A stretch of 64,000 bases of DNA. It comes from Burkholderia cenocepacia (lineage in GTDB: Bacteria; Pseudomonadota; Gammaproteobacteria; Burkholderiales; Burkholderiaceae). The DNA is taken from positions 2,604,001 through 2,668,000 of the forward strand of contig NZ_CP060040.1 in NCBI RefSeq assembly GCF_014211915.1, in the 5' to 3' direction. This document shows positions 10,567 to 42,036 of this stretch, one piece after another. The notes below the pieces were generated by a model. The model did not search any database. It was not told the origin of the DNA and saw only the letters and a program-made list of their open reading frames with translations. Every line of letters begins with the position of its first letter. Positions within the stretch are counted from its first letter, which is position 1. Position numbers and translations under genes: made by a program.

Positions 10567-10582
10567 AGCGGAGCGCGTGAAC

Positions 10583-11901: not shown

Positions 11902-12006
11902 CGGCGGGGCTTCGTCGTCGGGAGATCGGCTGCATTGTCGGGACTTGACCGGATGACGCATGGCGATCGCGGCGTGATGACGACGATTACATCGGCCTGT
12001 CTCACG

Positions 12007-12024
12007 ATTACCAAAAACTGTCAC
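12007..12024 (+). promoter_or_regulatory. possible Pho box upstream of the extracellular nuclease
   Basis: ATTACCA-AAAA-CTGTCAC has the 7-4-7 Pho-box layout. The second half matches the consensus CTGTCAY exactly; the first half is poor. It lies 47 bases before the start codon. ExeM-type nucleases are often phosphate-starvation genes, which is the main reason to list it. Confidence 0.25.
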
Positions 12025-12070
12025 CGAGCGCCGCTAAGCTTTCGCCACCCTCACAACCGGGATTCCCGCC

Positions 12071-13885: not shown

Positions 13886-14582
13886 GCGTGGTCTGAGTCT
13901 TGGTGACGGCGCGATGTGCGGCAATGCCGGACGTCGCGCCCGTTCCGGAAAGCCGTTCGAATACCGGGTAAATAATGCCGTGAACAATTAATCGAACCGG
14001 TATTTTATGGATGATGCGGTGCACATCGATACTTCGATTGAAGTGCGATTGAAATGGAAAGAATCATCGAATGACGTGTGCATGCTGCTGCATCGTCTTA
14101 ATCGATTGGCGATAATAAAATTGAAAGAATAATCCTGTCGATCTGAAGGCTTTCGATGTGTTGCGCCAATGCAGGAAAGGCTTCCTCGTTGTGCAGAAAA
14201 GGTAAAATATTCGACGCGACATAGTCGATAAAGCCCGCCTTGCACGAATAATTCCGTTTTCTTTCAAATTCCAGACACTGTCCGCCCTTCGCATCATTGC
14301 GGGATTTTTAATATCCGAATGATCTTTGACAACGCGGCGCAGCACCGCCTATTTTTGTCATGGCTCAAGTTTCAGTCATACAAAAGTTGTCCAAACTGCA
14401 GGGGGCGCGTCCGGGCATCATTCTCGCCAGCAGTTTGCTGTGTCTGTATCAAGTTCAGTCTCTGAGAAGTCCCATTCCCAACCGCCGACTGCCGACCGTG
14501 CAACGCGAGTGGCGGGTCGGCCTGCGCGTGTCGCGGGCGTTGGCGGCCTTTGTGACGCGGTATCCGAAGCCAAAGGAAAGAG
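13886..14582. other. AT-rich intergenic region with promoter for the S10 peptidase
   Basis: About 700 bases without a convincing gene. 13910-13955 folds into a GC hairpin (GGCGCGA...TCGCGCC around CGGCAATGCCG) that may end the nuclease transcript. 13970-14320 is markedly AT-rich compared with both flanks and contains only short minus-strand frames with no recognisable family. TTGACA-N18-TATTTT (14326-14355) is a good sigma-70 promoter for the peptidase, which implies an untranslated leader of about 220 bases. The AT-rich stretch may be a regulatory landing zone or a remnant of transfer. Confidence 0.5.
14326..14355 (+). promoter_or_regulatory. sigma-70 promoter for S10 peptidase
   Basis: TTGACA (14326-14331), an 18-base spacer and TATTTT (14350-14355). 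It is the best promoter-like match in the AT-rich region and directs transcription to the lipoprotein peptidase. Confidence 0.5.
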
Positions 14583-16430: not shown

Positions 16431-16473
16431 GCGACGGAGTCCTTGTCAAAGGAACCCTCTCTTCATCCATTGA

Positions 16474-16905
16474 ATGCGAGCGATCATGTCCCTAATCCAA
16501 TTGATGCGGCGTCTGTCTCCGTTGATCGTGCTCGGTGCCGTGATGAGCAGCGCCCATGCGTTGCCGCCGCAGGCGGTGGCGCCGGTGAAGCTGCCGCACG
16601 GCGGGCGCGGTGTCGACGGTCCGTTCTTTCCGGCCACGCGGGCGGCGCCGGTGTTGCCGTCGACCGGCGCGACGTTGCAGCAGCAGGCGCAACAGCGCGT
16701 CGACGCGCGGCTCGGCGGCAATACCGTGCTGAGCAACGGCGCGGCCGTGACGAAGGCGCAGGCGCAGAGCAGCGGGCTCGGCTTCGTGTCGAAGCACTTC
16801 GACGAGATCGATGCGAAGCACACCGGTCGCGTGACGATGAGTGATGTCCGGCAGTTCATCCGGCAGCGGCAGGTGCAGGCGCAGCAGCAACAGCAGGACG
16901 AGTGA
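16474..16905 (+). CDS. exported EF-hand domain protein
   Basis: 143 residues from ATG 16474 (ATG 16486, four codons later, is equally possible). A signal peptide ends at about SSAHA. The mature protein has a Pro/Gly-rich region, then one EF-hand loop, DEIDAKHTGRVTMSDV, with Asp/Asp/His-Thr/Arg/Asp positions suited to Ca2+ binding, and ends in a Gln-rich tail (RQVQAQQQQQDE). The role is unknown. It may be co-transcribed with the upstream S10 peptidase. Confidence 0.7.
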   Translation: MRAIMSLIQLMRRLSPLIVLGAVMSSAHALPPQAVAPVKLPHGGRGVDGPFFPATRAAPVLPSTGATLQQQAQQRVDARLGGNTVLSNGAAVTKAQAQSSGLGFVSKHFDEIDAKHTGRVTMSDVRQFIRQRQVQAQQQQQDE

Positions 16906-16920
16906 CGTAGCCGGGCTGGG

Positions 16921-16956
16921 CGGGGGCCGGTGCGATGGCGACCGCACCGGCCCCCG
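16921..16956. terminator. 14-bp GC hairpin between convergent genes
   Basis: A perfect 14-base stem (CGGGGGCCGGTGCG and its complement) encloses an 8-base loop. It lies just after the EF-hand gene and before the 3' end of the convergent AraC-type regulator. There is no T run, so it may stop or protect both transcripts by structure alone. Confidence 0.5.
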
Positions 16957-17039
16957 ACTATTCAGCTGCGCGGGTGCCGGGGGGCGCCCGGCTTCCGTTG
17001 CATGTTTTCATCCCGCATGCCGGAGAAGCGGACGACGGC

Positions 17040-23304: not shown

Positions 23305-25122
23305 TCAGGGCCGCCCCGAATGTCGAAGCGACGAGATCAATTCCGCGCCGCACGAAGTCTTGTGGCCGTCGAACGCGGCGGCTCCGCCTTCGATGTCGAA
23401 GGCCGGGTCGCCTTCGGCGATCGTGCACGCACCATGAATCGGACACGAGCACGCGTCGCCGATACGAGCGACCGCGCGCCCCATCACCGTGCTTTTTCGG
23501 GCGCCGGATTCGACCCGGCCGCCGTGGGTATGCTTGTCTTCTACCCGGATAATTCCCCGCATGGGATTCCGTCCTCCAAATGGTTTGAGGTCTGACGCGG
23601 CGATCACGTTCGGATGAAGCAATCTGCCGCACCGGTGTGCATCACCACGAATAACCTTGCATGCCGTAATTTGTGTCGTGCCGACGCCCCACCACGGCAG
23701 ATAGGCATTGTTGCCACCGCGTGCGCGGAACCAGTCCTTGTCGGGATCGATCGGCGTGAGTTTCGACGGTGGCCGGACGACGACCGCGACAGGGTGATCT
23801 GGATCGGTCGTGCCGGCGACGAGTGCGTTGCCGCCGAAGTGATTGATCCGGCCGATGGCGAGCGCGACGTCGGTCAATGCGCTGCCTGTTCCCATGTCGC
23901 CGAGCAGGGCGGCCGTGTTGAATGTCTGCTTCCGGTGGTCGTATTCGGGAAGGGTTTCGGTCAAGGTTTGTCCGAGCATCGCAAGACGTGCCGATGATGC
24001 GTCGCTGCCTTTACCTGCGTCGTGGACGATGTAGTCGAGGTCAGGGACCGCGACGCCGGCATTGCGTGCCGCTTGGTCGATGGTCGCCTTCCACGCCTGC
24101 ACGGCGCGGGTCGTGCCTGCCTTCTGCGGAAAATCATGCGTGTTGCCAGTGGCGGCCTTGCCGATCCAGGCGAGCGGTTCGCGTTCGGTGTTGAACGTCG
24201 GACCAGCGAGGAACAGCGCGACAAGGTTCTCATTGATCTGTGCATCCGTGGGAGGGAAGTTGGGTGCGTCCCAGTTCACTACCCAGACGCTCTTGTCGGG
24301 GTTCGCCTGCAAGTAGTCCAGTGCGTTGTTCAGGGATGTGAATCCGGTGTTGGGGCCGCCCTGTGTGACCTGTACGTCGGGGAGCGTGTTGCGGCTCCAC
24401 ATCGTTGGAAAATACCGATTCCCGATCGAAAACGTCCTTCGAATCGAGTCCTGCAAGTAGCTTTGCGATTCGGCCGCGTCGAGTCGTTCCGGAATCGCAA
24501 GCTCGACACGGATGCCAGCCAATTCACGCCAGTCCCTTTTATCGTCAGGTTTGACCGTGTAGAAGTATTTCGCGTTGCTCGCGTAGCGTGAGTGAAGCAG
24601 TAGCGGAAATTTAGTCATGTACTTGCGATAGAACCCTCTGAATGTTTCTGCGCCTTCGTTTCCATATACCAGCGCGCCAATCGATTGAAGCGTTGTGAAG
24701 GACTTCGGATCGGTCCGCACCATGTCGTCGTTCTTGTTCGGAGACGCGAGTCCTTGCGTCCACAGCAGTTGCCATTCGGTCGGGTAGTCCATGCGTTGCA
24801 ACGGATTCAACCAGATCAAACCTACGACCTGAGCGACGAATGGCTTCGCTGCTTCTTCCGCAGAGGGTCCCGCATGCGTTACAGGTTTCGTCGAAGGTGT
24901 CGCGTGCGCCGGCCGTACCGTGGCCGTGGTGAACAGAAGCACCATGAGCGCAGCCAGGCTGGGCACGACTAAAAATCGTTTCATCCAATCTCCTATTTCC
25001 AGTTGTGTCGGGTCTGGTTGTTCTACGTGCGCCATTAACGACGCCATGAGTACGGTCGTGATCATCCATGCTGCGAGCGCGACAGCGGCACGTCGCGGCC
25101 ATGTCGCGATTAGTGCCTTCAT
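23305..25122 (-). CDS. tla3: type VI lipase adaptor Tla3 (DUF2875) reading in frame into a PAAR domain
   Basis: 605 residues. Residues 1-520 match the Tla3/DUF2875 family: two N-terminal membrane segments (about 9-31 and 50-67), then a large soluble domain with EEAAKPFVAQVVGLIWLNPLQR and later WWGVGTTQITACKVIRGD. Residues 521-605 are a complete PAAR protein (MRGIIRVEDKHTHGG ... GDACSCPIHG). An internal ATG (23562) with GGAGG 10 bases upstream marks what is normally a separate PAAR gene. Tla3 loads Tle3 lipase onto VgrG, and PAAR caps the VgrG spike. Its start overlaps the tle3 stop (ATGA). Confidence 0.8.
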   Translation of the reverse strand: MKALIATWPRRAAVALAAWMITTVLMASLMAHVEQPDPTQLEIGDWMKRFLVVPSLAALMVLLFTTATVRPAHATPSTKPVTHAGPSAEEAAKPFVAQVVGLIWLNPLQRMDYPTEWQLLWTQGLASPNKNDDMVRTDPKSFTTLQSIGALVYGNEGAETFRGFYRKYMTKFPLLLHSRYASNAKYFYTVKPDDKRDWRELAGIRVELAIPERLDAAESQSYLQDSIRRTFSIGNRYFPTMWSRNTLPDVQVTQGGPNTGFTSLNNALDYLQANPDKSVWVVNWDAPNFPPTDAQINENLVALFLAGPTFNTEREPLAWIGKAATGNTHDFPQKAGTTRAVQAWKATIDQAARNAGVAVPDLDYIVHDAGKGSDASSARLAMLGQTLTETLPEYDHRKQTFNTAALLGDMGTGSALTDVALAIGRINHFGGNALVAGTTDPDHPVAVVVRPPSKLTPIDPDKDWFRARGGNNAYLPWWGVGTTQITACKVIRGDAHRCGRLLHPNVIAASDLKPFGGRNPMRGIIRVEDKHTHGGRVESGARKSTVMGRAVARIGDACSCPIHGACTIAEGDPAFDIEGGAAAFDGHKTSCGAELISSLRHSGRP

Positions 25123-27431
25123 ATCGTGCCTCCGACCTTCAGATAGAACTGACCTTCTCGTTCATTCGTGATGGCATCCGGCATCTTGCCTTCGCTGCTC
25201 TCCGCATGTACCCATTCATGCATCGGAAGTTCGTCAAGTTTTCCGCGCACAAAGTACTCTGTGTATTTCTTGTTCGGGTTGTCGTCGGGAATACCGTCTT
25301 CCATCCGCCAATCGGCTTCAATCCGTAGCGCTTTCATTTGCTCGGGCGTCAGATAGCAAACCCCGATCGCCACGTCGTACGCAAGCGCCTTTTTGGCATG
25401 ATCCGGATTGGTCATCGTCGTGGAGTGATTTGTCGGGCTGTTGGTCGAACCACGATCGAGCCAATCGACAATCTGCTTGTCGCGCCATTCCTTGTAGCCC
25501 TCCGGCATTTCGCTCTTGCCGTCCTCGCCGATCACGTGACCATCGCCATCGAGCCATTCCGTATTCAGCGTTCGCCGCGCCTCCATCCGCATCAACGCGC
25601 GGTCCTCGTAACGCTGTCCGGCTTCGCTCTCTGCCGTACCTTGCGCGACACTGTCCGCGTTCTTCGCCTCGTACTGATCGTAAGGATCGTCCGCGCGCTT
25701 GTCTGCCTCGCTCTTGCTTGCGTCACGCCATGCGGCTGGCGGATCGTTGCCTTCGTTGAAGTCGCTTTTCGCATTGCCGTCCCTCGTTTCGATGGGCTTG
25801 CCGAACCGCAACGCTTGCGGCGGGAACGGTTCGTCGAGTGCCGGCGCGTCCGCTACCACGGTCCAGCCCTTCGGCGGAAGGGCGTTCACGCGGAACATAT
25901 TCAATGCCGAGCTGATCTGGGTCACGAAAAACATGATCGGCGCGGATGCAAGCGTGGCCGCCACCCCGAACACGGACTCGTTTCCCTTGAGCGCACCGAT
26001 GAGATTGAACTTGGCCGGCGGCGAAGGTGGATACCAGAATCCCGACGTCTTTCCCTTTTGCCGATGCCGCCAGTCGTCTTCCCAATACTGATAGCGTTCC
26101 TGCACGCCAACCTGGAAGCCGGAGGCAAAGACGCGTTGCGTCAGCACGCCGGGGACGCTGATATCGTTCAGCTCGTTCTCGTCGATGCCGCGCCAGCCGA
26201 TACCTTGAACCGTGACCGCCGAAATCACCTGGTCGTGCGGGCAGCAATACGCGGTGACGCGACCATATGTCGATCCGTTCAGGCCGTGGCGGGCCCGATC
26301 CTCTTGTGCCGCATAAGACCGCTTGCTGGTCGGCGATACCCGCTCGTTGGCCATGTCTTCATCGATCTTGCCGGCGGGCAGTTCGTAAGCTTTGCGCGTG
26401 CCGATGATCGACAGAAACTTGCCGAGCGTTTTCGTGCGGGCGGCGTAGGTCTGCCGTCCGCGACGACCGCTGCCGTCCCTGGTCGCGCGTTGCGACCAGG
26501 TATCCATGAACGTATCGGATGGATTCGGGCCGTCTGCGCGCGCAAGGCTGTACGGCGCATTCGCCAGTACATAGGCATCCGCCACGCAATGCCCGCTACG
26601 TCCCCACGGATCTTCGACATCGGGCATTGCATCGCCGAAGAACGCCGCCGTCAGGCCCACGATGTTGCCCTGGCTATGGCATACGACGGTAATCGGCACG
26701 TCGGCCTGCATGCGGCGAATCGACTCGATCAGCCTCGCCAGGCGCAACGCCGCGAGCACGCCATATGCGCGGGGCGGCGCGCGATATAGCGGCCGGTTGG
26801 TCGGGTTGATCCCTTGGACGGTCAACCACCCGGCCGCGCGGTCGTCGAGGCCGTCGTGCCAGAGATCGGGCAGGCTCGCGCAGCCATTCGTGAACGGGCC
26901 GCCGCCCCAATAGTCCTTCTCGTTCAGGAAAATCTTGTCGCCATACTCTTTCAACTCTGCGGCGGTTGCCCGATAGCCCCATCGGAAATGAATGACGGGC
27001 GAGAAGGACGGATCAGATTTGACGTAGTTGTCCGCAAGCAGCGTCGGATTGAGAAACCCATCCGGCGTCACGCTTTCCGTGTACTTCGCCGGCACCAATT
27101 GCCCAGCGTCGATGCCGTGATACATCAATTGATCATCCAGCCGCCCGAGCCGTCGGTTCAGACCTTTGCACAGCCCACGCTCGGCGGCTTCAAACCATTC
27201 GCCTTCGGAGTTCACGCCATGAACGAAGATGACGACACCAGGCAACGGCATTTGCTTGATGCAGATCAGCCGCGTGTCTTTCGTCCACATCGAGACCCCG
27301 TCGCTCCGACCGACGACGATCTGAGGTGGCTCCGTGCCCGTCGCGGCATGCTCGTCGGTGCGTGCGTCCTCTTCCGGCCGAGGATCGAGAGATGATTCGA
27401 TCATCCGGACTCCTGCGCTTTTGTTAAACAT
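25119..27431 (-). CDS. tle3: type VI secretion lipase effector Tle3
   Basis: 770 residues with an alpha/beta-hydrolase core and the DUF3274-type C-terminal region of the Tle3 phospholipase family. The oxyanion segment is VIFVHGVNSEGEWF (67-80). The nucleophile is Ser253 in VVCHSQGNIVG, a CHSQG variant of GxSxG. It overlaps the vgrG stop by 8 bases and is preceded by AAGAAG. It is delivered by VgrG with help from Tla3 and PAAR, and attacks membrane phospholipids of neighbouring bacteria. No Tli3-like immunity gene is seen between vgrG and tla3. Confidence 0.88.
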   Translation of the reverse strand: MFNKSAGVRMIESSLDPRPEEDARTDEHAATGTEPPQIVVGRSDGVSMWTKDTRLICIKQMPLPGVVIFVHGVNSEGEWFEAAERGLCKGLNRRLGRLDDQLMYHGIDAGQLVPAKYTESVTPDGFLNPTLLADNYVKSDPSFSPVIHFRWGYRATAAELKEYGDKIFLNEKDYWGGGPFTNGCASLPDLWHDGLDDRAAGWLTVQGINPTNRPLYRAPPRAYGVLAALRLARLIESIRRMQADVPITVVCHSQGNIVGLTAAFFGDAMPDVEDPWGRSGHCVADAYVLANAPYSLARADGPNPSDTFMDTWSQRATRDGSGRRGRQTYAARTKTLGKFLSIIGTRKAYELPAGKIDEDMANERVSPTSKRSYAAQEDRARHGLNGSTYGRVTAYCCPHDQVISAVTVQGIGWRGIDENELNDISVPGVLTQRVFASGFQVGVQERYQYWEDDWRHRQKGKTSGFWYPPSPPAKFNLIGALKGNESVFGVAATLASAPIMFFVTQISSALNMFRVNALPPKGWTVVADAPALDEPFPPQALRFGKPIETRDGNAKSDFNEGNDPPAAWRDASKSEADKRADDPYDQYEAKNADSVAQGTAESEAGQRYEDRALMRMEARRTLNTEWLDGDGHVIGEDGKSEMPEGYKEWRDKQIVDWLDRGSTNSPTNHSTTMTNPDHAKKALAYDVAIGVCYLTPEQMKALRIEADWRMEDGIPDDNPNKKYTEYFVRGKLDELPMHEWVHAESSEGKMPDAITNEREGQFYLKVGGTI

Positions 27432-30186
27432 TCTTCTTGGTGAACTGCACCGCCAGTCTCTCGAACCGGTCGGTATCGACCGCCGGCAGTTCCCCGGCCG
27501 TGTCGGTCGTCAAACTCGACAGCGTTCCCGATGCCGTTCGAATCTGTCCTTCGAACCCCGGCGCCGCGTTACCGTCCGTTGGGCGAATCAGCTTCGGGAC
27601 GCGGCCGAGCGGACGCTGATCGAATGTCGGCAGATCGACGCTCATGCTCGCGGGGCCGTCCCACGCATGACCATCGGATTTCACGGTGAACTTGCCGGGG
27701 CATCCCAGTTCGATATCGCTCCCGTGCAGCTTGAGATACGCGCCGCCAGCCGTGACGAATACGACTTCGTCGCTTGCCGTGCCGACAAGCCTGCCGTCGA
27801 CCGCGGTCAACTGGATGTTTTTGCCGGACTCGATTTGCGTGTCGTCGTGCTGCGATTGAAGGGCCACTTTCCCCTGATGCGCGATCGCCGATACGCCGTC
27901 ACCATGCGCGAACATCGCGACGCCACGCCCGGCATGCAGATTGATTCGCTCGCCGCTCGTGATTTGCATGTGCTGCTGCGCGATCTGATCGACGTTCTCG
28001 CCCGCATACGTGACGTGCGTTTTCGGCGTGACGTTCAGCGACCCGGCTTGCGCGCCGAACGCCATGAACGCGGAGGCGTCGCCGGTGGCGCCGGATTCCG
28101 ACCGGCCGGGTTTCCAGTGACGGAATGCATTGGCGATGTTGTCCTGGCCGGCCGTGTCGGCGGATTGCCCGCCATGCTGGCCGGCGTGATCGCCGAGCGA
28201 CTTGAACAGCGCCGTGCATTGATCGAGCAAGCGGATCAATTCGTCGCGATCGAGCTGACCACCGGTTGCATGCGAACGCGCATAGGTCGTCAACAGCATG
28301 CCTTGGGCAGCGCGCAACGCCACAGCGGCGTCGGTGCGCAGCTCCGCGCCTTCGCCCCGATCGCTTCCGTGTCCGTCCTTGCGCGGCTGCGTCAGGTAGC
28401 CGAGATTCAGCTGGGTATGCGCATGTCCGCTTGCCAGCTGCGCGGAGATTTGCGACGGCGTGTCGTCCAGCCGAAGCTGGTTGTGCCGGCGGCCCCTGAT
28501 TTCCCGCGTCTTGATCCCGGACACGTAGCGGTTGCCCGGCAGCGCGCCGGTATCGCTGAAAGTCGCGGGTGGGTTCGCGCCGTTGCTCAACACCCCGATG
28601 ATCACCAGACGGTCGGGATCGCCCGACAGGCTCCCCAGCAAGACTTCCATGCCGACACGCGGCAGGAACAGCGCCCCGAAGCATTCGCCCGCGAGACTTG
28701 CCACGACGCGAATCGGCGCGCTGTCGCCGGCCAGCCCGTTCGTGCCGGCGCCTTGCGCGTGAGCGTGGTCCGCCGGATCCAGCCCGTGAATCAGCACACG
28801 CACGCGGCCTGCGTTGTCGCACAACACCTCTTCGCCCTGCGTGCCGACGATCGTGCCGGTCAGCAGGTGAACCGGCGGCACGTCGATCGCCGGATCGTAG
28901 GCCGGCTTGAGCGGCACACCGCGTTGCACGCACGTGAAACTGTTCTCGTAGCGTGTGTCCGTTTGTCCCGATGCATCGGGCGGCGGGACGGTCGGCGTCA
29001 GGTTGCGGCTTGCCGCGAACAGCCCGCTTGCGCGGCCCGACAGGTCTTTCGGCAGGTTGTTCCAGATTTCGTGTCGAATCGACGTGACGACGAACCGACG
29101 ACGATCGATCGACTTCATATCCAGCTCGGGGTCGCCCGCCAGCGTGAACCCGTGTCCCACGAGCATGTCGCGCACGGTGCCGATGCCTTCGAAGTGCGCG
29201 GCTTCGAACTGATGGGCCAGCATCCGGTCGTGCGCGATGCGCGCGTGATCGTTCCACGAGTCGCCGACGTGCGGGATGTCGATCGCGACGTCGGTCAGCA
29301 GGCGCGCGAGATCGTTTCCCGACTCGCCCTGATCGATGTCGGCGGCGGCCTCGAAGTCGTCCACGCGAGCGGTCTTGTAATCCCACGACGGGCGGCGGAC
29401 CTTGCCGGGCGACAGACGCTGGTCGTACGCAAAGAGGGTGACGGTGTCACGTTGCTCGACGCCGGCGTCGCGCGGGTGAAGGCGGACGGTGCCGGCCGGC
29501 GCGTCCGGCAGACGATGCGGATCGTCGCAGAACACGAGCGTGTGAATCGGCCGCTCGTCGGCCACGCCGCGTCTGCCGTCGACCGGGGCGGCCTTCGCGA
29601 AAACCGTGATGCCTTCCCGGCGCAGCAGACGCCGGATGAAGCGCGCGTCGGATTCGTTGACTTGCCGCGTCAGCTCGCGTGCCGGATAGCGATCGGCCTG
29701 CAACGTCGACAGGTCGAAATCGAACGTGCGCGCGAGCGCGGGGCTACGCTGTTTCCACTCGTTCATCAGCGTCGCCAGAATGTCCGGCACGCTGCGCGAG
29801 CGGAACAGGCGGGCGTTCGTGCGACGGTCCATCAGCGACAGGGCGTCGCAAACGTGCAGCTGATAGACGGTCAGTTCGCCGTCTGATTGCCCGGCTCGCA
29901 CTTCGCGCACGATCGCGTTGATGGCCTGGATGTTGCCCCGGTCGGTCGTCAGCCGGACCGATACGGGCAAGCCGAGAAACAGCGCAGGCGGCAGATGGTC
30001 GTAGGTGGACACGCAGGTCAGTTGCCCTTCGATGCCCGACATCAGTCCCTCGCGGATATCGGCGTGATGGAGCGCCAGCAGATGGCCGACCGCGCGTTGC
30101 GCCTGCCCGAAATGGAGGGAGACTGGACGCTTGTTCTGGTCGACCAGACCCGACGCAAAGTTTCTCAAAGTTGCTGCTATCGACAT
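27424..30186 (-). CDS. vgrG: type VI secretion spike protein VgrG
   Basis: 920 residues. The N-terminal gp27-like part (1-390) includes EGQLTCVSTYDHLPP and NESDARFIRRLLRREGITVFA. The gp5 OB domain is at about 460-560 (PVHLLTGTIVG, RVGMEVLLGSLSGDPDRLVIIGVLSNG). A DUF2345 beta-helix (about 700-830) and a short C-terminal extension follow. It is the first gene of the four-gene effector operon. No other T6SS structural genes are in the window, so this is an orphan vgrG cluster served by an apparatus elsewhere in the genome. Confidence 0.93.
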   Translation of the reverse strand: MSIAATLRNFASGLVDQNKRPVSLHFGQAQRAVGHLLALHHADIREGLMSGIEGQLTCVSTYDHLPPALFLGLPVSVRLTTDRGNIQAINAIVREVRAGQSDGELTVYQLHVCDALSLMDRRTNARLFRSRSVPDILATLMNEWKQRSPALARTFDFDLSTLQADRYPARELTRQVNESDARFIRRLLRREGITVFAKAAPVDGRRGVADERPIHTLVFCDDPHRLPDAPAGTVRLHPRDAGVEQRDTVTLFAYDQRLSPGKVRRPSWDYKTARVDDFEAAADIDQGESGNDLARLLTDVAIDIPHVGDSWNDHARIAHDRMLAHQFEAAHFEGIGTVRDMLVGHGFTLAGDPELDMKSIDRRRFVVTSIRHEIWNNLPKDLSGRASGLFAASRNLTPTVPPPDASGQTDTRYENSFTCVQRGVPLKPAYDPAIDVPPVHLLTGTIVGTQGEEVLCDNAGRVRVLIHGLDPADHAHAQGAGTNGLAGDSAPIRVVASLAGECFGALFLPRVGMEVLLGSLSGDPDRLVIIGVLSNGANPPATFSDTGALPGNRYVSGIKTREIRGRRHNQLRLDDTPSQISAQLASGHAHTQLNLGYLTQPRKDGHGSDRGEGAELRTDAAVALRAAQGMLLTTYARSHATGGQLDRDELIRLLDQCTALFKSLGDHAGQHGGQSADTAGQDNIANAFRHWKPGRSESGATGDASAFMAFGAQAGSLNVTPKTHVTYAGENVDQIAQQHMQITSGERINLHAGRGVAMFAHGDGVSAIAHQGKVALQSQHDDTQIESGKNIQLTAVDGRLVGTASDEVVFVTAGGAYLKLHGSDIELGCPGKFTVKSDGHAWDGPASMSVDLPTFDQRPLGRVPKLIRPTDGNAAPGFEGQIRTASGTLSSLTTDTAGELPAVDTDRFERLAVQFTKKNV

Positions 30187-30809
30187 AACGACAATCTCGT
30201 TATTTTTTGTTCCGGATTCGGATGGATTCGAATCCGCCTCTCAGGGTGGCAATGCGACGGCACTTGGAATTTCGGTGCGAAGAATAGCAAGCTATTTCTA
30301 TCTCTATTCGATATTTTTATTTTGAGATGGAAAATTATTTCTTTTGAAACAATGGTTAATGTTTGTTTTGGTTAGGTGGTGTTTTTGTTTCGATGGGGAT
30401 ATGTCGAGGAAGTTATTTTGGATTGGTATTTGTTGTGACTCGTTTTTCCATATCATCGAAATAGGGGATTTTTTGTCAGGACATGATTGAATTGGAGAAT
30501 GAGAGTTCGGAATTGTCCCGAATCAAAATGAGCAACGGTACGTCACGCCATTGAAATTGGCGCGAGCGGGCTTGTGTACTGGCGCGCGATGTGCACGTCC
30601 GCCGATCGGATGCCGGAAAAATGCATCTTTCAACATACAAATTCGCCGCTGGATGGTTCGGTCAGCGCCCATTGACGTGCCGCCGGGCGACAAGGAACCT
30701 GTGACGAGGCATGCCGGCATCGGCGAATTTCGAACGGCGGGTGCGTTGCCGATCATTCCACCCTATAGTGCTCGTCGTTGATCGATCCGCAAGCAATCGG
30801 GGGTTCGTC
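30187..30809. other. AT-rich region upstream of vgrG
   Basis: About 620 bases without a convincing gene, strongly AT-rich between 30190 and 30540 compared with its flanks, which is typical of T6SS effector islands and H-NS-type silencing targets. The minus strand should hold the vgrG promoter. TATAGT (30764-30769) is a candidate -10 for the plus-strand exported protein gene. No repeat or RNA gene was recognised. Confidence 0.45.
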
Positions 30810-31625
30810 GTGTTTCGCCGGAAATTCAAATTGGGTTGTTCGCGCTTCGCGTGCATCGTCGCCGTGACGACGATGCTGGCGCCCGTCGCGGTGCATGCGG
30901 AGGGGGAGGCTGTCGATGGCACGACGCACGTCGCGTCGGCTGTCGATCACGACACGTCACCGGCACGACCGATTGTCGGCGACGATCCGGTTGCCATCCG
31001 GAATGCGCTGCAGAAGGTGCACATCGGCACGCTCTCACCTTCGTTGCGCGATCGCGTTCGCGGCGCGGTCGCCGGTGCCGCCGGCCGGCACGGCCCGACG
31101 AATCCCGACCTGGCGGCCGTCGGTCTCGATCGTGACGTGACGTTCGTGGTGCCGGTGCGGTACGGGCTGAGATACCGGTCGCGGCGGCAACTGCTGACGC
31201 TGGATGTCGACCTGTTCGATGCGGAGCGCGACGGCCGGGACGGCATCCTGCTCCACAAGGTGACGACGGGGCCGCGAGGGCGCGGGCTCGTGATTGCACC
31301 GGAAGCGAAGGCAAAAGGGTACATCCAGCACGTCGACATCATCGAACTCGAGGCCGGGCAAGGCAAAAAGACCACGGTTCGGAGCCGCATGCGGCTTTCC
31401 CCCGCCGAGTACGCGCAAACGCATGGCGACTTCGCGCTTGTTTTTTCCGGACGCCTGGTTCGGCCTTACCTGACCGAACAAACCGAACATGCCGATCCGA
31501 GTATCGAGGAGCCGACGGACATTTCGACGAGGATCTCCACGTTGCATATGGATCTCCGCGACATCTGGCTGGTGAGTCCGTCGAGCGGCGTCGTGGTGTC
31601 GAAGAAGCTGGGGTTGTCGAAGTAG
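30810..31625 (+). CDS. exported protein of unknown function, divergent from vgrG
   Basis: 271 residues from GTG 30810, which has GGGGG upstream and gives a good signal peptide (RRKFKLGCSRFACIVAVTTMLAPVAVHA is split across the n- and h-regions). The frame could extend to ATG 30711, but a TATAGT element at 30764 argues that transcription starts later. The mature part contains VPVRYGLRYRSRRQLLTLDV and LRDIWLVSPSSGVVVSKKLG. No family was recognised. Its position opposite the T6SS operon makes an unrelated role or an immunity role both possible. Confidence 0.6.
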   Translation: MFRRKFKLGCSRFACIVAVTTMLAPVAVHAEGEAVDGTTHVASAVDHDTSPARPIVGDDPVAIRNALQKVHIGTLSPSLRDRVRGAVAGAAGRHGPTNPDLAAVGLDRDVTFVVPVRYGLRYRSRRQLLTLDVDLFDAERDGRDGILLHKVTTGPRGRGLVIAPEAKAKGYIQHVDIIELEAGQGKKTTVRSRMRLSPAEYAQTHGDFALVFSGRLVRPYLTEQTEHADPSIEEPTDISTRISTLHMDLRDIWLVSPSSGVVVSKKLGLSK

Positions 31626-34917: not shown

Positions 34918-35067
34918 AGAAATCAAGCATCCAGAGTCGGGTTTCCCGACGCCAACCTGCCCTCCCGGGCAAGGTGGACGCCCTCGAGGCGATGCGGCCG
35001 ATTGACGGCAACGAAACGGGAGCAGCATGGCTGGCACCGGTTCGATAACCATTCATCCGGAGCAACC

Positions 35068-35415
35068 ATGAGCCAAGTTTCCTCCGCTTCCCGCCCGACG
35101 GTCTGTGAAGACTGGTCGCATTTTCTTCCCGGTTTCACGTTGACGCATACGGTTCATCTCGTTTCGAGACGGAATCCGGGCATCGTTTCGACCGCGGCGG
35201 CCGTGCTCGAAGGTGAAACGGCGACGGTCGATCGGTGGGCCATCACGCGCTGTGGCGACGTGCTCGAACAGAAGATCGTGCTCGGCGAGATGACGGAAGG
35301 GCAAGCGGTGCGGCTGCGTGAACGGCTTGCCGCGCTGGAGGGGGTGCTTCGCACGAAGGTCGAGCATCATTTTGTTCGGGGTGGTTCTGGACATGCGTCG
35401 GAGAAAGGTCGTTAG
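35068..35415 (+). CDS. small protein with ACT-like domain
   Basis: 115 residues. GGAG precedes the ATG. After a short N-terminal tail the sequence FTLTHTVHLVSRRNPGIVSTAAAVLEGETATVDRWAI has the beta-alpha pattern and PGIV motif of ACT regulatory domains (as in the acetolactate synthase small subunit), followed by LEQKIVLGEM and a second helix. A role as a small amino-acid-binding regulator is inferred from this pattern only. A strong promoter and a structured leader of about 170 bases precede it. Confidence 0.55.
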   Translation: MSQVSSASRPTVCEDWSHFLPGFTLTHTVHLVSRRNPGIVSTAAAVLEGETATVDRWAITRCGDVLEQKIVLGEMTEGQAVRLRERLAALEGVLRTKVEHHFVRGGSGHASEKGR

Positions 35416-35479
35416 ACGATACATTTGCGTCGCCACCGCATTTGCTGACATGACTTCTCGCGGCGTGATGCCTGAACGA

Positions 35480-35997
35480 TTACTCCCGGACGTCGCAATA
35501 GACCGCCAGATTTCGCTCAGATCGAACCAAGTCGAGGTCCTGAATTTCCTCAAACTGCTCGATTGCTGCTATGTAGTCGGGAGGAAGTTTTGCCGCACGA
35601 GCCCCGTACAACACGTGATATTTGTACCAGTGGTACGGCCTTAGTCCCAGCTCTGTCTTGGTTGCGAAGTAAGTGAATGCGGTAACGACTCCTTGGTCAG
35701 TCTGAACTTGAACTTCTTGCAGCTCAGAGGTGCGGCTGGCATCTTCGTATTTGTCCAAGGCCGGCAAACTGCTGGTATCAATAGCAAAGAGTACCCCCCA
35801 CACGTGATGCCCCGGTTTTCCAGTGAAATTGCAATCGCAATTGCCTGAGTCATCTATGGAAGCTTTGTCGAACGTGAGTTAAATCCATCGGGGTATCCAT
35901 TCGCGATATGCCGAATCGGTTTGATGCGGGTGGTCAGGCGCGGCGCACTCATGTTGGACCCGTATGCAAAGTATGCGAATTCGTTTGATTTGAACAT
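35480..35997 (-). pseudogene. gamma-glutamylcyclotransferase (AIG2-like), frameshifted
   Basis: The start ATG at 35997 (with GGGGAAAAA upstream) encodes MFKSNEFAYFAYGSNMSAPRL, containing the YGSN motif of the family. That frame stops at a TAG (35854-35856). A single-base shift nearby continues with IDDSGNCDCNFTGKPGHHVWG and then VLFAIDTSSLPALDKYE, LRPYHWYKYHVLYGA and LPPDYIAAIE, the normal C-terminal half. The total length is 518 bases, one short of a whole number of codons, giving about 172 residues if repaired. It lies 81 bases after the protease on the same strand. Confidence 0.75.
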
Positions 35998-36078
35998 TTT
36001 TTCCCCACACTGTTCAGCGCTAGTGAATGCTTAAAAGTATTCTTCTCTCTTGCATGAGTGCGCTGTCGTTGGAGCCGG

Positions 36079-36894
36079 CTATGTGGCAGTGCTGGCCCCC
36101 GCGAGAAAACGTAGTGGCAAGAGGCTGATGGCTACCGTGCACCCTGAAGGAACTCGGGTATTACCATCTTTGCCAATATCAACAGTCGTCACAGCTCGTT
36201 GGGACAGAACGCCAATGGCTTCACCTCTCTCGTTGACGAGAGGCCCGCCGCTAGCGCCTGTATGCATCGCGTTGTCGATATACATGACGTCGCACTCCAG
36301 CGTTTCGCCGCCAGCAGTTGTCACCACAATACGCCTGATGTTTCCGATGTGCCCTTGCTTGATAAGCGGGCCAGTCATATCTGCCTGATACCCTTTATCC
36401 ATTGCGGCTTTGAATGCATCAGCGCCTTCCATTGCAGGACACAGCAATCGGTCTACATCAAAGGGCAGCCGCAACTCCTCTGAATAGCCGGCCATAAATA
36501 CGCGTTGACCGAGACGAGGTGTCTCCAGTGGAACTGGTATCCAGTGAAGCGTGTCGGGAAAAGGAATCTTCGGATGCAGTATCGCCAAGTCTAACTGAAC
36601 ATTACTCGTAAAGCCCGGGACCTGTATCTCTGGGCAACACATAACTACAGCATACTCAGCTACGGGAATTCCAGGAAATTTGCAGAATATCTTCAACTCG
36701 GGGGCGGTGTAGTCGCTCCTTCGAATGGGAAATCGTCCAGTGACAACATGTGCAGCTGTCATAACCTCACCGCTGGGCGTGTACGCGTATCCCGAACCTT
36801 CGCTAATCTTTTCGTCGTCCAGAAACACCGTCACGTAGCAGCAGGCGGGAGAGATTCGACCGTAGAGTTCTTCAGGCATGTCGCGTTGAGCCAT
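36079..36894 (-). CDS. trypsin-like serine protease, partner of the SMC-like ATPase
   Basis: 271 residues with the S1 (chymotrypsin-like) catalytic triad: His49 in TAAHVVTG, Asp102 in LDLAIL and Ser215 in HTGASGGPLVN. There is no signal peptide (MAQRDMPEELYG), so it is cytoplasmic, which is unusual for this fold and typical of effector proteases in defence systems. The start at 36894 is chosen because the longer frame to 37038 only reads through the end of the ATPase gene in another frame. It is 55 bases downstream of the ATPase stop on the same strand. Confidence 0.8.
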   Translation of the reverse strand: MAQRDMPEELYGRISPACCYVTVFLDDEKISEGSGYAYTPSGEVMTAAHVVTGRFPIRRSDYTAPELKIFCKFPGIPVAEYAVVMCCPEIQVPGFTSNVQLDLAILHPKIPFPDTLHWIPVPLETPRLGQRVFMAGYSEELRLPFDVDRLLCPAMEGADAFKAAMDKGYQADMTGPLIKQGHIGNIRRIVVTTAGGETLECDVMYIDNAMHTGASGGPLVNERGEAIGVLSQRAVTTVDIGKDGNTRVPSGCTVAISLLPLRFLAGASTAT

Positions 36895-36949
36895 GGATGT
36901 CAGATAGGGACGCCAGCATACTTCAGCAGCTTTCAAGTATCGACGAGGT

Positions 36950-39562
36950 CTAACCCCTCGCCGCGCGGATGGGGGTGCGCCTACGAACAATCTGCTCCCG
37001 CCATGATTCGAGCTTCTCAATGTCTTCACTAAGCTCATCGGGCTGAGGGATGGGTAACCTGCCGACGCGGGCGGCAGCGTCGTGCTCGAATTTCGAGCAT
37101 TTAGTCATCCCTGCTTCTATTGCGCGATAGTCATCGTCCGAGACAGCGACTTCTTTCAGCCGTTGTGTTGAAACACCCTCGCCAAAGCGTTGAATCGCAC
37201 CGTTGAAGAGGACCTCTTCCACACACCGCTCCCACGCGAGGCGCAAATCACCATACGCACGCGCTGTGAGGGTCCGATGCGCGTCCTCGTCTCCGTCAGC
37301 ATGCGCCTTGCGAACCTCTACAAGCATCTGCCGCAGCTTGCCAATGCGATTCTTCGTCCCGAGCACGTCGAAGGGAAGACCATCGGAATGTGCACCAAAT
37401 CCATCGACAGTGCGGCGGATGTAGTTTGCTTGGAGCGGGGTTTTTAGCTCATCAGCCTTCTGTTCAAGAATGCACAGGAAATATATGTCGTGCGTGAACA
37501 CGATGACCTGCCGCTTAAGCGACTCTTCGACGAGGCGCTCCGCGACTTCCCAACGGCGGCGATGGTCGAGCGACGAGACCGGGTCGTCGAAGACAATGCC
37601 GCCGCGACCGCCACTGAGCTTGGTTTCCGCGAGGAACGACGCGATAGCGATGGCGCGCTGTTCGCCTTCACTGAGAATTGCGGCCGGCGTCGCGTTGCCC
37701 GGCAGTTGAAGCGTGAGCTTGAACTGCGTTCGACCGCCGGGTGATTCTGGCTTCATGACAACCTGCAACTCATGGCACTTCAACCTAGTGAGCTCGTCGT
37801 TCAGCGCATCCGCCAACTCCTTACTTGCAAGAGTTCGGGACAGGTCGGTGGACTTTCGGGAAATCGCACGCGTGTCGGTACCGTTGATGCACGTTTGCAA
37901 CTTCGCGCAATACTCATATTTCGCAATTGCCTCGAACACGGCGTCCTTCACCTCGCGAAGCTTGTGCCTTGCGTCAAGTTCAGCTCGTTCGAGTACCAGC
38001 TTTGTGCGAGCGACCTCGTCGGCCGATGCTTCGAGGGTCTTTGCCTGAGCTTCCAGCGCGTCGGCAATCTCTTCGAGTCGAACGGCAGCGTCGTTCTGCA
38101 CGGTGCATACGTTTTCCCACGGCAGAGTGCCCGCAGACGCAAGCAACGCTTCGGATTGTCGAGTCTTCAAAACGGCTTCCGATTGCTCGCAAAGCGGCAA
38201 CAGCCGTGCATCCAGAGTGTTGAGCTCTTCCTTCATGGCAGGATCGATCACAAAGTCGAGCTTCGCATTCTTTATCGTGTTGTACGCGTCCTTTGCCAGG
38301 CTCCGTGCGTCCTTCGCAGCCTGCTCAACCTTGTCTTTAATAAACGCGTCGAAGCGACTGAGCCTGCTTGCGCCTTCTGCGCCCAGTTCATTCTGACAGA
38401 GCGGGCACTGTGCATCTTTCGGAAGAGCAGAAATTTGGTGGCCGGCGTGAGAGATGGCTGCGAAGTCGCGAGCGGCGTCAAACAGCGTCTTCCACTCGTC
38501 GCCACCAGTGCCTGGAAGCTGCCCCGGCTCACTTCGAAACGCTTCAGCTGCGGTATCGGCGACTTTCCTCGCGGCGTTCGATTTGCTGATAAGTTCCTGA
38601 AGATTATGGAGCTTTTCGGCGGAGACAGTTCCGACCTTAGTATCAATCTGCGTCTTGAGCCCTTTAACGCGAAGCGCCTTGTTTCGAATCTCTCGGGCTT
38701 TCGTCTTCGGGTCCGCTTCGGAAAGCGTCTTCGTCAAGGTTTCTCGGCGATTGACCTCGTCGTCCGACAGCTCTGCCAGCTTCTCTATCTCTTCTCTGGT
38801 GGTCTTCTTGGAAATGCCGCTAAGTGCGCGGCCGACTGCGGTGGTCTGGCTAATTAGCACAGAGTACGCCGCGTCGCTCGGCGACGAGTCCCCCTTTTCT
38901 TTCGTCGCGCGCGCCCTCAGTTTCCCACACAGACTCACCAGCCCTTCGAGAATATCGAGCCCGTACGGCACGTAAGCGAAATCACCCTGGTTGTCGATAT
39001 ACGCACGTGCGCAGTGGGTGTCGAAGATTGAGATATCCGCGAGCGGTACAGGCGGTTCTGCGCGATGCTTCCACACGAAGTCGACCGTAGTGCCATCGAC
39101 AATGGTTTCGAATACCGCCTGTGCAGTACCGACATCCTTCGGGTCCAAGCGAGCGTTGGGCAGGATAGGCTCTCTCCGGTCCCGTGCGCGGCATGCATGT
39201 TTGAATATTCTGGAGTAGCCAGATTTCCCTGCTCCATTTTCGCCGTAGATAACGGTCAGACCGGTCGGCGAAATTGGGAGGCGACCGCCTTGAACCAACG
39301 CGTTGACGTGTTGTAACTCTTTGATGGCGACAATCTGAACAAGTCGAGTGGGGTTGGTCTGAGGGGCGACCTCGGTGCTTGCTAACTTCTTGGCTACTCG
39401 GCCATGCTCGTCGGGGATACCCGCTTCAACCTTGGCAAGCGCATAGATGTCCTCGATGTCCTCCGGCGACAGCTCGCGATTCTCGTACAGTCGGGCAATA
39501 GCGTCTTGCTGCCAGGCCGAAAGAGTCTTCGACCACTGATGAATTTCTTGGATGATTGTCAC
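36950..39562 (-). CDS. SMC-like AAA ATPase of the PrrC/RloC (AAA_13) group with zinc hook
   Basis: 870 residues. An N-terminal helical segment (1-75) is followed by Walker A GENGAGKS (107-114) and SGYSRIFKHACRARD. Long coiled coils (about 210-380 and 395-600) flank a zinc-hook CPLC (386-389). The ABC signature LSEGEQ (630-635), Walker B IVFDDP (656-661) and FTHD (689-692) follow. The C-terminal domain has Arg774-x3-Glu778 and His827, which recalls the Arg-Glu-His triad of PrrC/RloC anticodon nucleases. Base composition is lower in GC than the flanks. It is probably a nuclease activated by phage or DNA damage. Confidence 0.75.
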   Translation of the reverse strand: MTIIQEIHQWSKTLSAWQQDAIARLYENRELSPEDIEDIYALAKVEAGIPDEHGRVAKKLASTEVAPQTNPTRLVQIVAIKELQHVNALVQGGRLPISPTGLTVIYGENGAGKSGYSRIFKHACRARDRREPILPNARLDPKDVGTAQAVFETIVDGTTVDFVWKHRAEPPVPLADISIFDTHCARAYIDNQGDFAYVPYGLDILEGLVSLCGKLRARATKEKGDSSPSDAAYSVLISQTTAVGRALSGISKKTTREEIEKLAELSDDEVNRRETLTKTLSEADPKTKAREIRNKALRVKGLKTQIDTKVGTVSAEKLHNLQELISKSNAARKVADTAAEAFRSEPGQLPGTGGDEWKTLFDAARDFAAISHAGHQISALPKDAQCPLCQNELGAEGASRLSRFDAFIKDKVEQAAKDARSLAKDAYNTIKNAKLDFVIDPAMKEELNTLDARLLPLCEQSEAVLKTRQSEALLASAGTLPWENVCTVQNDAAVRLEEIADALEAQAKTLEASADEVARTKLVLERAELDARHKLREVKDAVFEAIAKYEYCAKLQTCINGTDTRAISRKSTDLSRTLASKELADALNDELTRLKCHELQVVMKPESPGGRTQFKLTLQLPGNATPAAILSEGEQRAIAIASFLAETKLSGGRGGIVFDDPVSSLDHRRRWEVAERLVEESLKRQVIVFTHDIYFLCILEQKADELKTPLQANYIRRTVDGFGAHSDGLPFDVLGTKNRIGKLRQMLVEVRKAHADGDEDAHRTLTARAYGDLRLAWERCVEEVLFNGAIQRFGEGVSTQRLKEVAVSDDDYRAIEAGMTKCSKFEHDAAARVGRLPIPQPDELSEDIEKLESWREQIVRRRTPIRAARG

Positions 39563-40206
39563 AGGTCAAGCCCCCGTAATTTATCGAGACTGATGTAGTT
39601 GCTTTGGTCGGTGCATTATTTGAAATGGGATAGATATTTTAATGTTATACGCGCGAATATAAATGCGTATACCGAAAAATCGGTATTTTTTTGACCGACC
39701 CCTGCAACCGTTTTCAACAAGACGACGCGCCGAGAGACTATGCACGCGAGTTGTGAGTCATCCAGAAGTGTGAGTCTGCAATGCGAGGCTACTAGGGCGA
39801 CTCGCTACCCGTATCTCTCCGTGTGCATCGAAATGGGAACCTAGTACTATATCCCGCGCCTTTCGAGTGGGTAACCTCGGTGAGGGGCGTGTTGATAGGT
39901 GCTACTCCTTGGAGGGTGTAGGTCGACATTGCGTTTACCGGGGCGCACGTGCGTTGGTTGACGGTCTCACAGCGCCGGAGGTGCTCGCAGATGCGTTCGC
40001 TGGCGGGTGGCGCGGGGACCTCGGAGGCGGAGGTTTCTCCGCTCTCGAGGCATGCTAGAGGGCTGCGCTTTAGTTCTATTCGTTTCCGTTAAGCTGCGTC
40101 CCGCCCGAGTTTGCGGGCGGGACAAAGGCCCTAAGGAAAATTTTTGTAGCAAGCTTCAAGTGGAACCTGTCCGCATTTTTGTGGGCGCGGCACGGTTCAC
40201 TCGCCC
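39563..40206. other. gap between the defence-like cassette and glmS
   Basis: About 640 bases without a recognised gene. 39600-39860 is AT-rich and should contain the ATPase promoter on the minus strand. A terminator-like palindrome lies at 39669-39692. A perfect 10-base hairpin (GTCCCGCCCG/CGGGCGGGAC) lies near 40096-40121. The last 30 bases before the glmS stop correspond to the place where Tn7-type elements insert (about 25 bases after the stop). No clear Tn7 end, target duplication or transposase gene was seen. Confidence 0.5.
39669..39692 (+). terminator. palindrome with T run upstream of the ATPase gene
   Basis: ATACCGA-AAAA-TCGGTAT followed by seven T (39686-39692) is a textbook intrinsic terminator on the plus strand, yet no plus-strand gene precedes it. 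It would stop transcripts running antisense out of the ATPase gene, or act as a palindromic operator about 110 bases upstream of that gene. Confidence 0.5.
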
Positions 40207-42036
40207 TCACTCCACCGTCACCGACTTGGCCAGATTCCTAGGCTTATCAATATCCGTCCCCCGCGCCAACGCCGCGTGATACGCGAGCAGTTGCATCGGC
40301 ACCGTATGCAAAATCGGCGACAACGGCCCGTAATACTCATTGAGCCGAATCACCTCGATCCCTTCACCCGGCACGATCCCGCAGTCCACGTCAGCGAACA
40401 CGAAGAGCCGCCCGTTCCGCGCACTGACCTCATGCATGTTCGACCGGAGTTTCTCGAGCAACATGTCATTCGGCGCGACCGCGATCACCGGCATTTCATT
40501 GCTGACGAGCGCCAGCGGCCCATGCTTCAACTCACCCGCCGGATAAGCCTCCGCATGAATATACGAAATCTCCTTCATCTTCAGCGCGCCTTCCAATGCG
40601 ATCGGATAATGCATCCCGCGCCCGAGAAACAGCATGTTGTCGCGTCGCGCGAGTAGCTCCGACCACGCCATGATCTGCGGTTCCAGCGCGAGCACTTTCG
40701 ACATCGCATCGGGCAGATGCCGCAGCGTCCGCAGATGTTCCTTCTCGTCGTCGTCATTCAGCCGCCCGCGCACCTGCGCCAGCGACAGCGTCAGCAGGAA
40801 CAGCGCGACGAGCTGCGTCGTAAACGCCTTCGTCGACGCCACGCCGATCTCGACCCCCGCACGCGTCACGAACTGCAGCGCGCATTCGCGCATCAGCGCA
40901 CTCGTCGCCACGTTGCAGATCGCGAGCGTGTGGATCATCCCGCTGCGTTTCGCGACATGCACGGCCCCGAGCACGTCGGCCGTCTCGCCGCTCTGCGATA
41001 CCGCAACCACCAGCGTGCGCGGATTCGGCACGCTGTCGCGATAACGGAACTCGCTGGCAATCTCCACGCTGGCCGGCAGCTTCGCGATGCTTTCGATCCA
41101 GTACTTCGCGGTCAGCGCCGCGTGATAGCTGCCGCCGCACGCGAGCAGCAGCACCGAATCGACGTCATTGAACACGCGCCACGCGCCGTCGCCGAACAGC
41201 TCGGGCATGATCGACGAAACGTCGAGCAGCGTATCGGCCACGGCCTGCGGCTGCTCGAAGATCTCCTTCTGCATGTAGTAGCGATACGATCCGAGATCGG
41301 CCGCGCCGCTATGCGCGGCGACGCGTTGCACCGCGCGCTCGACGCGCTGACCGTTCGCATCGACGATCCAGTAGCGATGCAGTTGGATATCGGCGACGTC
41401 GCCGTTCTCCAGGTACGCAATGCGATCGGTGATACCCGACAGCGCAATCGCGTCGGACGCCAGAAAATTCTCGCCTTCGCCGACCCCGACGACGAGCGGC
41501 ATCCCGTCGCGTGCGCCGACGATCCGGTGCGGCTCATCGCGGCACATCACCGCGATCGCATAGCTGCCGCGCAGTCGCGCGACCGCGCGCCGTACCGCGT
41601 CGAACAGGTCGCCGTCGTACAGATGGTCGATCAGATGCGCGATCGCCTCGCTGTCGGTCTGGCTCGCGAACACATAGCCGTGCGCCTGCAGTTCCGCGCG
41701 CAGTTGATCGCAGTTCTCGATGATCCCGTTGTGCGACAGCGCGATGCGCGCATTGGCGTCGCTTGGCGAGAAGTGCGGATGCGCGTTGAGCGTGACGGGC
41801 GCGCCATGCGTGGCCCAGCGCGTATGCGCGATGCCCGTGTAACCGGACAACGCTTGGTCGGCAATCTCGCGCTGCAGGTTCGCGACGCGATCGACGCTGC
41901 GGGCGCGCGCCAGCGCGCGGTCGCGGTAGACCACGACGCCGCACGAATCGTAGCCGCGGTATTCGAGCCGCTTCAGGCCGTCGACGAGGTTCGGCAGGAT
42001 GTCCCGCTGGGCAACCGCCCCGACAATTCCACACAT
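40207..42036 (-). CDS. glmS: glutamine--fructose-6-phosphate aminotransferase GlmS
   Basis: 609 residues, normal length. The N-terminal nucleophile hydrolase glutaminase domain begins MCGIVGA (Cys2 catalytic), with [14 protein letters not shown] and SHNGIIEN. Two SIS sugar-isomerase domains follow ([25 protein letters not shown]). The C-terminus ends in the conserved KSVTVE, the TnsD recognition end used by Tn7. It makes glucosamine-6-phosphate for peptidoglycan and lipopolysaccharide. It is divergent from an Lrp-type regulator through a region with two matching palindromes. Confidence 0.97.

Follow-up and report, generated by a model that had tools for sequence, protein, structure and literature searches.

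Three adjacent genes on the reverse strand of a Burkholderia cenocepacia genome, encoding in order an SMC-like ATPase, a trypsin-like protease and a gamma-glutamylcyclotransferase, raise the question of whether they work as one conserved defence system or represent separate pieces of mobile cargo. The initial annotation of the window, the 64,000-nucleotide stretch of DNA to which all positions below refer, proposed the former. The comparisons below do not sustain that proposal of a new, conserved system of three genes. Judging from sequence comparison, we consider it fairly probable that the ATPase gene is mobile and by itself encodes an RloC-like abortive-infection system, and that the protease and cyclotransferase constitute a second cargo block.

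An insert behind glmS

The three genes occupy an insert of ~4.8 kb (35431..40203), which extends from a small gene behind a SAM riboswitch to the 3′ end of glmS (40207..42036, reverse strand). This flanking gene was recognised by Pfam and in genus genomes, its 3′ end having a match in each of the 61 genus genomes searched, although some of these offer no more than a copy ~74-75% identical. Four of 12 relatives (L073, L074, L075 and L076) have an empty site, with matched flanks 92, 70, 28 and 39 bp apart, and two others have Lamassu or a Mokosh-like helicase nearby at the glmS-3′ site. A distant RloC-like branch (PDC-S06, PDLC04891 type) is thereby placed in a glmS-3′ insertion hotspot that is cleanly empty in relatives. 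The empty sites, the alternative defence cargo behind glmS and the defence neighbours of related ATPases (below) are among the grounds for reading the locus as defence-related, and the ATPase gene would itself be the mobile unit carried into this site. The lower GC than both flanks that had been noted initially is confirmed: each kilobase across 35001-40000 has 54-57%, compared with 61-66% in the 3 kb to either side, though comparable dips occur elsewhere in the window (53% at 30001-31000 and ~58% at 24001-26000).

Apart from these genes, the insert showed no ORF of a size expected for a transposase or integrase, and comparison of the tested insert ends gave no exact match of at least 9 bp, whether inverted or direct. 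Terminal repeats marking the insert were likewise not found; a chance-like family of 19-nt repeats does not mark the ends. A phage origin was rejected, as a search of 50,697 phage records with a cut of 1e-5 matched neither ATPase nor protease, and a search of viral contigs with the protease alone found no copy.

The ATPase and its conserved motifs

The ATPase gene (36950..39562, reverse strand) starts with GTG and encodes 870 residues; its assignment as an RloC-like (PDC-S06) ABC/Rad50-type protein draws on the ORF, Pfam, PADLOC, alignment and structure search. All motifs listed in the initial annotation lie where it had placed them: Walker A GENGAGKS at residues 107-114 (39221..39244), a CPLC hook at C386-C389 in a coiled-coil insert (38396..38407), LSEGEQ at 630-635, a Walker B ending in D659-D660, and R774-x3-E778 with H827 in a C-terminal helical domain (37082..37243), each on the reverse strand. 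Walker A, signature, Walker B and D-loop make up a Rad50-like ABC head, while the structure model sets the hook cysteines between helices 355-371 and 394-431. Pfam assigns AAA_13, AAA_21 and SMC_N. Membership of AVAST was rejected, since Pfam finds no STAND domain and no Avs family occurs among the 25 of 31 PADLOC matches listed.

The motifs are conserved far beyond chance, since G107, N109, G110, G112, K113, S114, C386, C389, D659, D660, R774, E778 and H827 are invariant in all 32 rows of an alignment of the window protein with 31 relatives (31-89% identity). A wider set of 128 distinct rows, composed of 112 of the 120 listed homologues (those of at least 780 aa; the best 120 of 3510) and the 32-row set, keeps C386, R774, E778 and H827 in 128/128 and C389 in 127/128. 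One further homologue alignment held 27 full-length distinct rows from 43 matches.

The PADLOC model PDC-S06 (PDLC04891) matches the whole protein, residues 1-862 on profile positions 1-857/858 (1.7e-227). At full length, the ATPase profile also matches an RloC-type group, a profile group with members source-named 'wobble nucleotide-excising tRNase', over 610 columns at 20% identity (probability 99.1, E 7e-19). Because of these two matches, the invariant R-E-H set and the RloC-like R-x3-E spacing, the protein is taken as RloC-like, and the best reading is that this PDC-S06-type ATPase belongs to a known kind as a distant RloC-like branch.

Three observations were counted against that reading: the mismatch of the C-terminal domain, the offset of R774/E778 and the homologue names. 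In the full-length profile alignment, R774 and E778 are offset from the Arg and Glu of the RloC group. The C-terminal domain alone gave no significant match to the corresponding domain of the RloC group (hhalign probability 0.5, E 0.11) or to a wider RloC set (hhalign probability 0.2), had zero matches in Pfam, and as a profile against PDB returned a single match, an unrelated ribosomal protein (E 0.25). HEPN was not found by profile, and its lack among the structure matches carries no weight, as that search barely reached past residue 735; in the model, the domain is all-helical, with helices 759-785 and 809-826. Source names among the best 120 of 3510 homologues include 'AAA family ATPase', 'recombination protein F' and transporter ATPases, with 'RloC' or 'tRNase' in none. 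A PHROG family of unassigned function matches the ATPase around Walker B (2e-15).

We envisage that head and hook may respond to aberrant DNA ends, to damaged DNA or to interference by phage, upon which ATP turnover would free the C-terminal domain to cut RNA, most likely tRNA, and translation would stop. R774/E778/H827 offer an invariant residue set for testing.

Protease and cyclotransferase

The protease gene (36079..36879, reverse strand) likely starts at the Met at 36879, since most relatives shown begin at the equivalent Met, which would give a protein of 266 aa and a gap of 70 nt from the ATPase stop. Pfam (Trypsin_2, 9.6e-11), a triad H44, D97 and S210 invariant in 46/46 rows, and a model with a mean pLDDT of 87 and DegS as best PDB matches identify it as an HtrA/DegS-type trypsin-like protease without PDZ. 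No signal peptide was seen by eye, and the family is apparently cytoplasmic. PADLOC has no model for it, the best match being RT-Protease_XI (9.9e-09).

The cyclotransferase-like gene (AIG2_2; 35480..35997, reverse strand), recognised by Pfam and reading-frame comparison, is frameshifted: its YFAYGSN start (35997..35854) lies in another frame than the remainder (to 35480), and the initial coordinates covered the 3′ part only. The gene is whole in P. susongensis (L005, 172 aa) and open over 171 aligned residues in Burkholderia sp. H160 (L016). In the window it appears to be decaying, and as a working part it is ruled out by the frameshift. The proposed order of ATPase, protease and cyclotransferase on the reverse strand stands, with the last gene not intact.

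Linkage across genomes

Among 398 family genomes, the ATPase occurs in 20 (best two first-look candidates per genome, cut 1e-100) and the protease in five (up to six candidates per genome, cut 1e-15), two of these copies being partial (G155 and G315). Both occur in the window genome only; the other four protease-bearing genomes lack the window-type ATPase. The ATPase was also found in 12 of 144 genomes of the P. susongensis genus, a sample that overlaps with the first (G315 and G786 give one and the same match at an identical position, and three ATPase genomes likewise coincide).

ATPases 88-90% identical to that of the window, in Paraburkholderia fungorum, Pandoraea and Trinickia, have no adjacent protease: it is missing beside the L001, L002 and L004 genes and the truncated L003 gene, and is absent from the rest of these genomes. 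DNA similarity to L001, L002 and L004 extends only 12 nt beyond the end of the ATPase gene. A protease adjoins the ATPase in two of 16 loci, L005 and L016; at L014 only ~300 bases lie beyond the ATPase, and a protease could lie further on. One count of 0/60 within the conserved-cassette test came without a positive control. The trio recurs whole in P. susongensis, and in Burkholderia sp. H160 with an intact protease behind an ATPase reduced to its C-terminal end; both loci share order and strand with the window, and an ATPase-protease gap of 70-78 nt is common to all three. Four more pairings, one each in Paraburkholderia sp. BCC1876 and P. atlantica and two on contigs of 30096 and 36682 bases, are deduced from longest contigs of equal length among the listed homologues of the protease (the best 120 of 161) and of the ATPase (the best 120 of 3510), rather than from the DNA itself.

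The ATPase-only close relatives, the co-occurrence in 1/20 and 1/5 genomes and the 12-nt boundary led us to reject a conserved three-gene cassette, and the expectation that the protease would be conserved beside close ATPase homologues largely fails with it, as does, given also the frameshift, the conserved three-gene defence system initially proposed. We suggest that protease and cyclotransferase joined the ATPase in a Paraburkholderia/Burkholderia sub-lineage, within which the P. susongensis trio, its truncated counterpart in H160 and the four inferred pairings leave room for functional coupling.

Defence neighbourhoods

Related ATPases have as neighbours Hachiman HamA and HamB (L004), PDC-M11A (L011) and a type II restriction enzyme (L008), with a partial HNH-effector match near another (L049) and BREX BrxL ~5 kb upstream of a further one (L055). 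The initial annotation named absence from defence islands and a non-nuclease fold of the C-terminal domain as further findings that would speak against its proposal; the related ATPases do lie near defence genes, and no non-nuclease fold emerged for the domain. Its view of the ATPase as RloC-like and defence-associated is supported by the full-length PDC-S06 match, the R-E-H set, the head and hook, and the glmS-3′ site with defence systems in two relatives. Plasmids also carry relatives (280 records at 1e-5, of which 169 cover at least 80% of the query and six reach at least 60% identity).

The protease has a PADLOC-listed gene next to it in six of 11 distinct contexts inspected. That gene is PDC-S06 in the window (by scan) and in L005 and L016 (by ATPase identity to the window's). 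At L043, the protease lies 0.85 kb from a divergent PDC-S06 gene of another subtype; at L100, its next gene is PD-T7-1-like and Lamassu follows after 3.3 kb; and at L101, a protease fragment lies beside the arrangement seen at L100 (both of its defence genes being recognised through their similarity to those of L100) and a ThsB-like, Thoeris-type TIR gene. Three ORFs scanned around the L044 protease gave one weak DrmA match (1.6e-05), ~5.6 kb off. Copies in an Acinetobacter plasmid and in IncC-type plasmids lie beside integrases (by annotation) with no clear defence neighbour, and none was evident in the unscanned surroundings of the L045 and L046 fragments. Recurrence next to defence genes and the lack of a PADLOC model make this small protease family a modest new lead.

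Alternative readings

A two-gene system, with the ATPase as the infection sensor in control of a protease that serves as second effector or as a switch freeing the nuclease domain, could draw on the common arrangement of the three loci, on the four inferred pairs and on the trypsin-domain effectors that SMC-like Lamassu systems can carry (PMC10586767). We nevertheless judge it distinctly unlikely, given close relatives that have the ATPase and no protease anywhere in the genome, the rarity of co-occurrence, the end of common DNA just past the ATPase stop, and an L016 protease that has stayed intact despite its reduced ATPase. The protease might alternatively be a general, uncatalogued defence-island protease, acting solo or plugged into various SMC/Rad50-like sensors. 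The six of 11 contexts and the missing PADLOC model speak for this, but it seems doubtful: the other five have no clear defence neighbour, and the sharing of hotspots could give adjacency without function.

That the ATPase is an SMC-like protein of DNA repair or housekeeping, unconnected with defence, is very improbable, in view of its patchy distribution (20/398 and 12/144 genomes), plasmid relatives, defence neighbours, lower GC and invariant R-E-H domain; Rad50 and SbcC are described as lacking the C-region of RloC (PMC2610378). We return, then, to a single-gene RloC-like ATPase, beside which the protease would more probably be a defence-island gene, independent or accessory, than an obligate partner. 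One might speculate further, although we think it unlikely, that PDZ-less HtrA-type proteases are an uncatalogued anti-phage plug-in that moves among RloC-like, Lamassu, PD-T7-1-like and TIR systems and, once switched on by infection, would cleave a protein of the host or the phage.

Relation to known systems

Like the RloC of Geobacillus kaustophilus, the ATPase is Rad50-like, carries a CxxC hook in its coiled coil and has Arg-x3-Glu...His in the C-terminal region, the RloC set being R692-E696-H737 (PMC2610378). It also falls within the range of 658-897 aa described for RloC, and shares the GUG start of 13 of 70 RloC genes (PMC2610378). It differs in being distant in sequence (20% identity), in a C-terminal domain with no significant match to that of RloC and in an R774-H827 spacing of 53 against 45. 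According to the same source, RloC genes are usually unlinked to restriction genes and lie in possible transposons in 10 of 73 cases. Pseudomonas aeruginosa PA14 has two PDC-S06 by PADLOC (PMC11878078) and two RloC orthologues (PMC2610378).

PDC-S06, by its 'S', is taken to denote a single gene, whereas in the window the ATPase is followed by a protease and by a cyclotransferase that is broken. No published RloC-protease system was found among the open-access paper listings searched. An SMC-like ATPase near a trypsin-like protease resembles Lamassu with a trypsin-domain LmuA, but the ATPase matches LmuB at 1.6e-10 against 1.7e-227 for PDC-S06, the protease matches LmuA weakly (1.7e-04) and there is no third component. 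Membership was rejected, the best PADLOC matches being PDC-S06 and RT-Protease_XI.

PrrC, too, combines an ATPase with C-terminal R-x3-E and H logic; it is described as lacking the RloC-type hook insert (PMC2610378). It goes with type I restriction genes, whereas the window insert holds only protease and cyclotransferase besides the ATPase, which matches the PrrC profile around Walker B alone (3.4e-06). Elsewhere in the genome, a PrrC match lies directly behind an HsdM-like gene.

The ATPase and the insertion site behind glmS

We consider that the ATPase of the window (870 aa; 36950..39562, minus strand) is probably an RloC-like single-gene defence protein carried in an insertion site behind glmS. 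Proteins of its kind are already known, being listed as the candidate defence family PDC-S06. The initial annotation had placed it in a candidate defence cassette with a trypsin-like protease (36079..36879) and a gamma-glutamylcyclotransferase-like sequence (35997..35480), both also on the minus strand, with glmS (40207..42036, minus strand) directly upstream of the trio. The cyclotransferase is broken in the window, where it is split over two frames; its counterparts at L005 (P. susongensis) and L016 (Burkholderia sp. H160) each occupy a single frame.

We compared the glmS flank from 12 relatives. In four of them (L073, L074, L075 and L076) the flanks of the window are joined, with 92, 70, 28 and 39 bp between matches, respectively. 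Such near-contiguous flanks therefore set the window insert at ~4.8 kb. Other relatives hold ~0.8 kb (L072), 4.4 kb (L080) or 9.1 kb (L078) at the site, and five (L077, L079, L081, L082 and L083) have no match to the near left flank within the glmS-flank stretch examined. Among these five, L077 carries Lamassu LmuA-LmuB and L083 a Mokosh-like helicase (MkoC, 3.2e-71), each ~3.3 kb from glmS. Judged from translations read by eye, there is also non-defence-like cargo, with L079 carrying genes related to secretion and L078, L080 and L082 carrying genes for metal transport. The 3′ ends of glmS are the classic target of Tn7; no Tn7 genes were seen within the window insert.

In genome G391 (locus L043), the GlmS encoded ahead of a different PDC-S06 ATPase and a protease of 78% identity is only 62% identical to that of the window, and this pair consequently sits behind another glmS copy. 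The ATPase of L001, a further relative, likewise follows a 64%-identical GlmS.

Just beyond the insert, inside the flank retained by empty-site relatives, is a SAM-I/IV riboswitch (34922-35025, plus strand; 57.2 bits against a gathering threshold of 41.1), which precedes the 3′ portion of an ORF whose end is at 35415. Near glmS in L077, together with Lamassu, is an unclassified gene of 481 aa (8199-9644) without a match in PADLOC and Pfam scans; N-terminal similarity, by eye, points to a counterpart (L046:1-589) beside a protease fragment in another genome.

The protease as separate cargo

The protease, an HtrA/DegS-type protease domain without PDZ and with no signal peptide seen by eye, forms a recurrent cargo of its own, often accompanied by defence genes. 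It adjoins the ATPase in two of 16 ATPase loci: L005, where similarity to the window spans the whole trio (35477-39740), and L016, which retains just the C-terminal end of the ATPase. The DNA that L001, L002 and L004 share with the window reaches no further than 36938, 12 nt beyond the ATPase stop codon. Further, the protease occurs in one of 11 ATPase-bearing genomes searched whole, a set that excludes the L016 genome. Four further ATPase-protease pairs, among the homologues listed, are inferred from matching lengths of the longest contig and not read from DNA.

The best 120 of 161 protease homologues were listed. Copies occur in 5/398 family genomes (three full-length, two partial), in 3/144 genomes of the P. 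susongensis genus (one being a partial copy already counted in the family sample), in 1/369 class genomes (the window's own) and in none of 60 genomes of another genus.

A PADLOC-listed neighbour is present in six of 11 distinct protease contexts, a raw count in which some contexts were judged by similarity and not by scan. The protease adjoins a PD-T7-1-like gene with Lamassu nearby (L100), accompanies another PDC-S06 gene (L043), and lies beside integrases on resistance plasmids (L054, L119 and L120). A fragment at a second P. susongensis locus (L101; G776, 2419-16957) is also by PD-T7-1-like and Lamassu-type genes, both assigned by similarity to L100. Nothing clearly defence-like lies near the protease in L044, which has one weak DrmA match, in L053, or in the fragments L045 and L046. 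The L101 fragment also lies beside Tn7-like TniQ/TniB/TnsA-like genes and a ThsB-like TIR gene.

Distribution and neighbours of related ATPases

At E 1e-100 or better, the ATPase is present in 20/398 family genomes and 12/144 genomes of the P. susongensis genus, two samples that overlap. Any match at 1e-5 was found in 280 plasmid records; 169 of these records cover at least 80% of the query and only six reach at least 60% identity.

Nine neighbouring proteins from L002, L004, L008, L011, L012 and L049 were scanned. Matches to HamA and HamB in L004 were strong, as were those to PDC-M11A in L011 and, in L008, to a type II restriction enzyme; L049 gave a weak or partial match to an HNH effector, as did L012 to families associated with SIR2 and Argonaute. 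The L002 exonuclease had no match, and its YhaN-like partner weak matches only. Among plasmid records, L055 has BREX BrxL ~5 kb upstream of the ATPase, and near that of L057 is a type II restriction-modification pair; annotation of L056, L058 and L059 revealed no obvious defence neighbour.

A pair of exonuclease and YhaN-like ATPase genes, annotated in L055 and assigned by similarity in L001, L002 and L047, is beside or within ~5 kb of related ATPases. Elsewhere in the window's own genome, a PrrC match (2.4e-143; L114, G000:C1:531721-532794) directly follows a gene named HsdM-like by eye.
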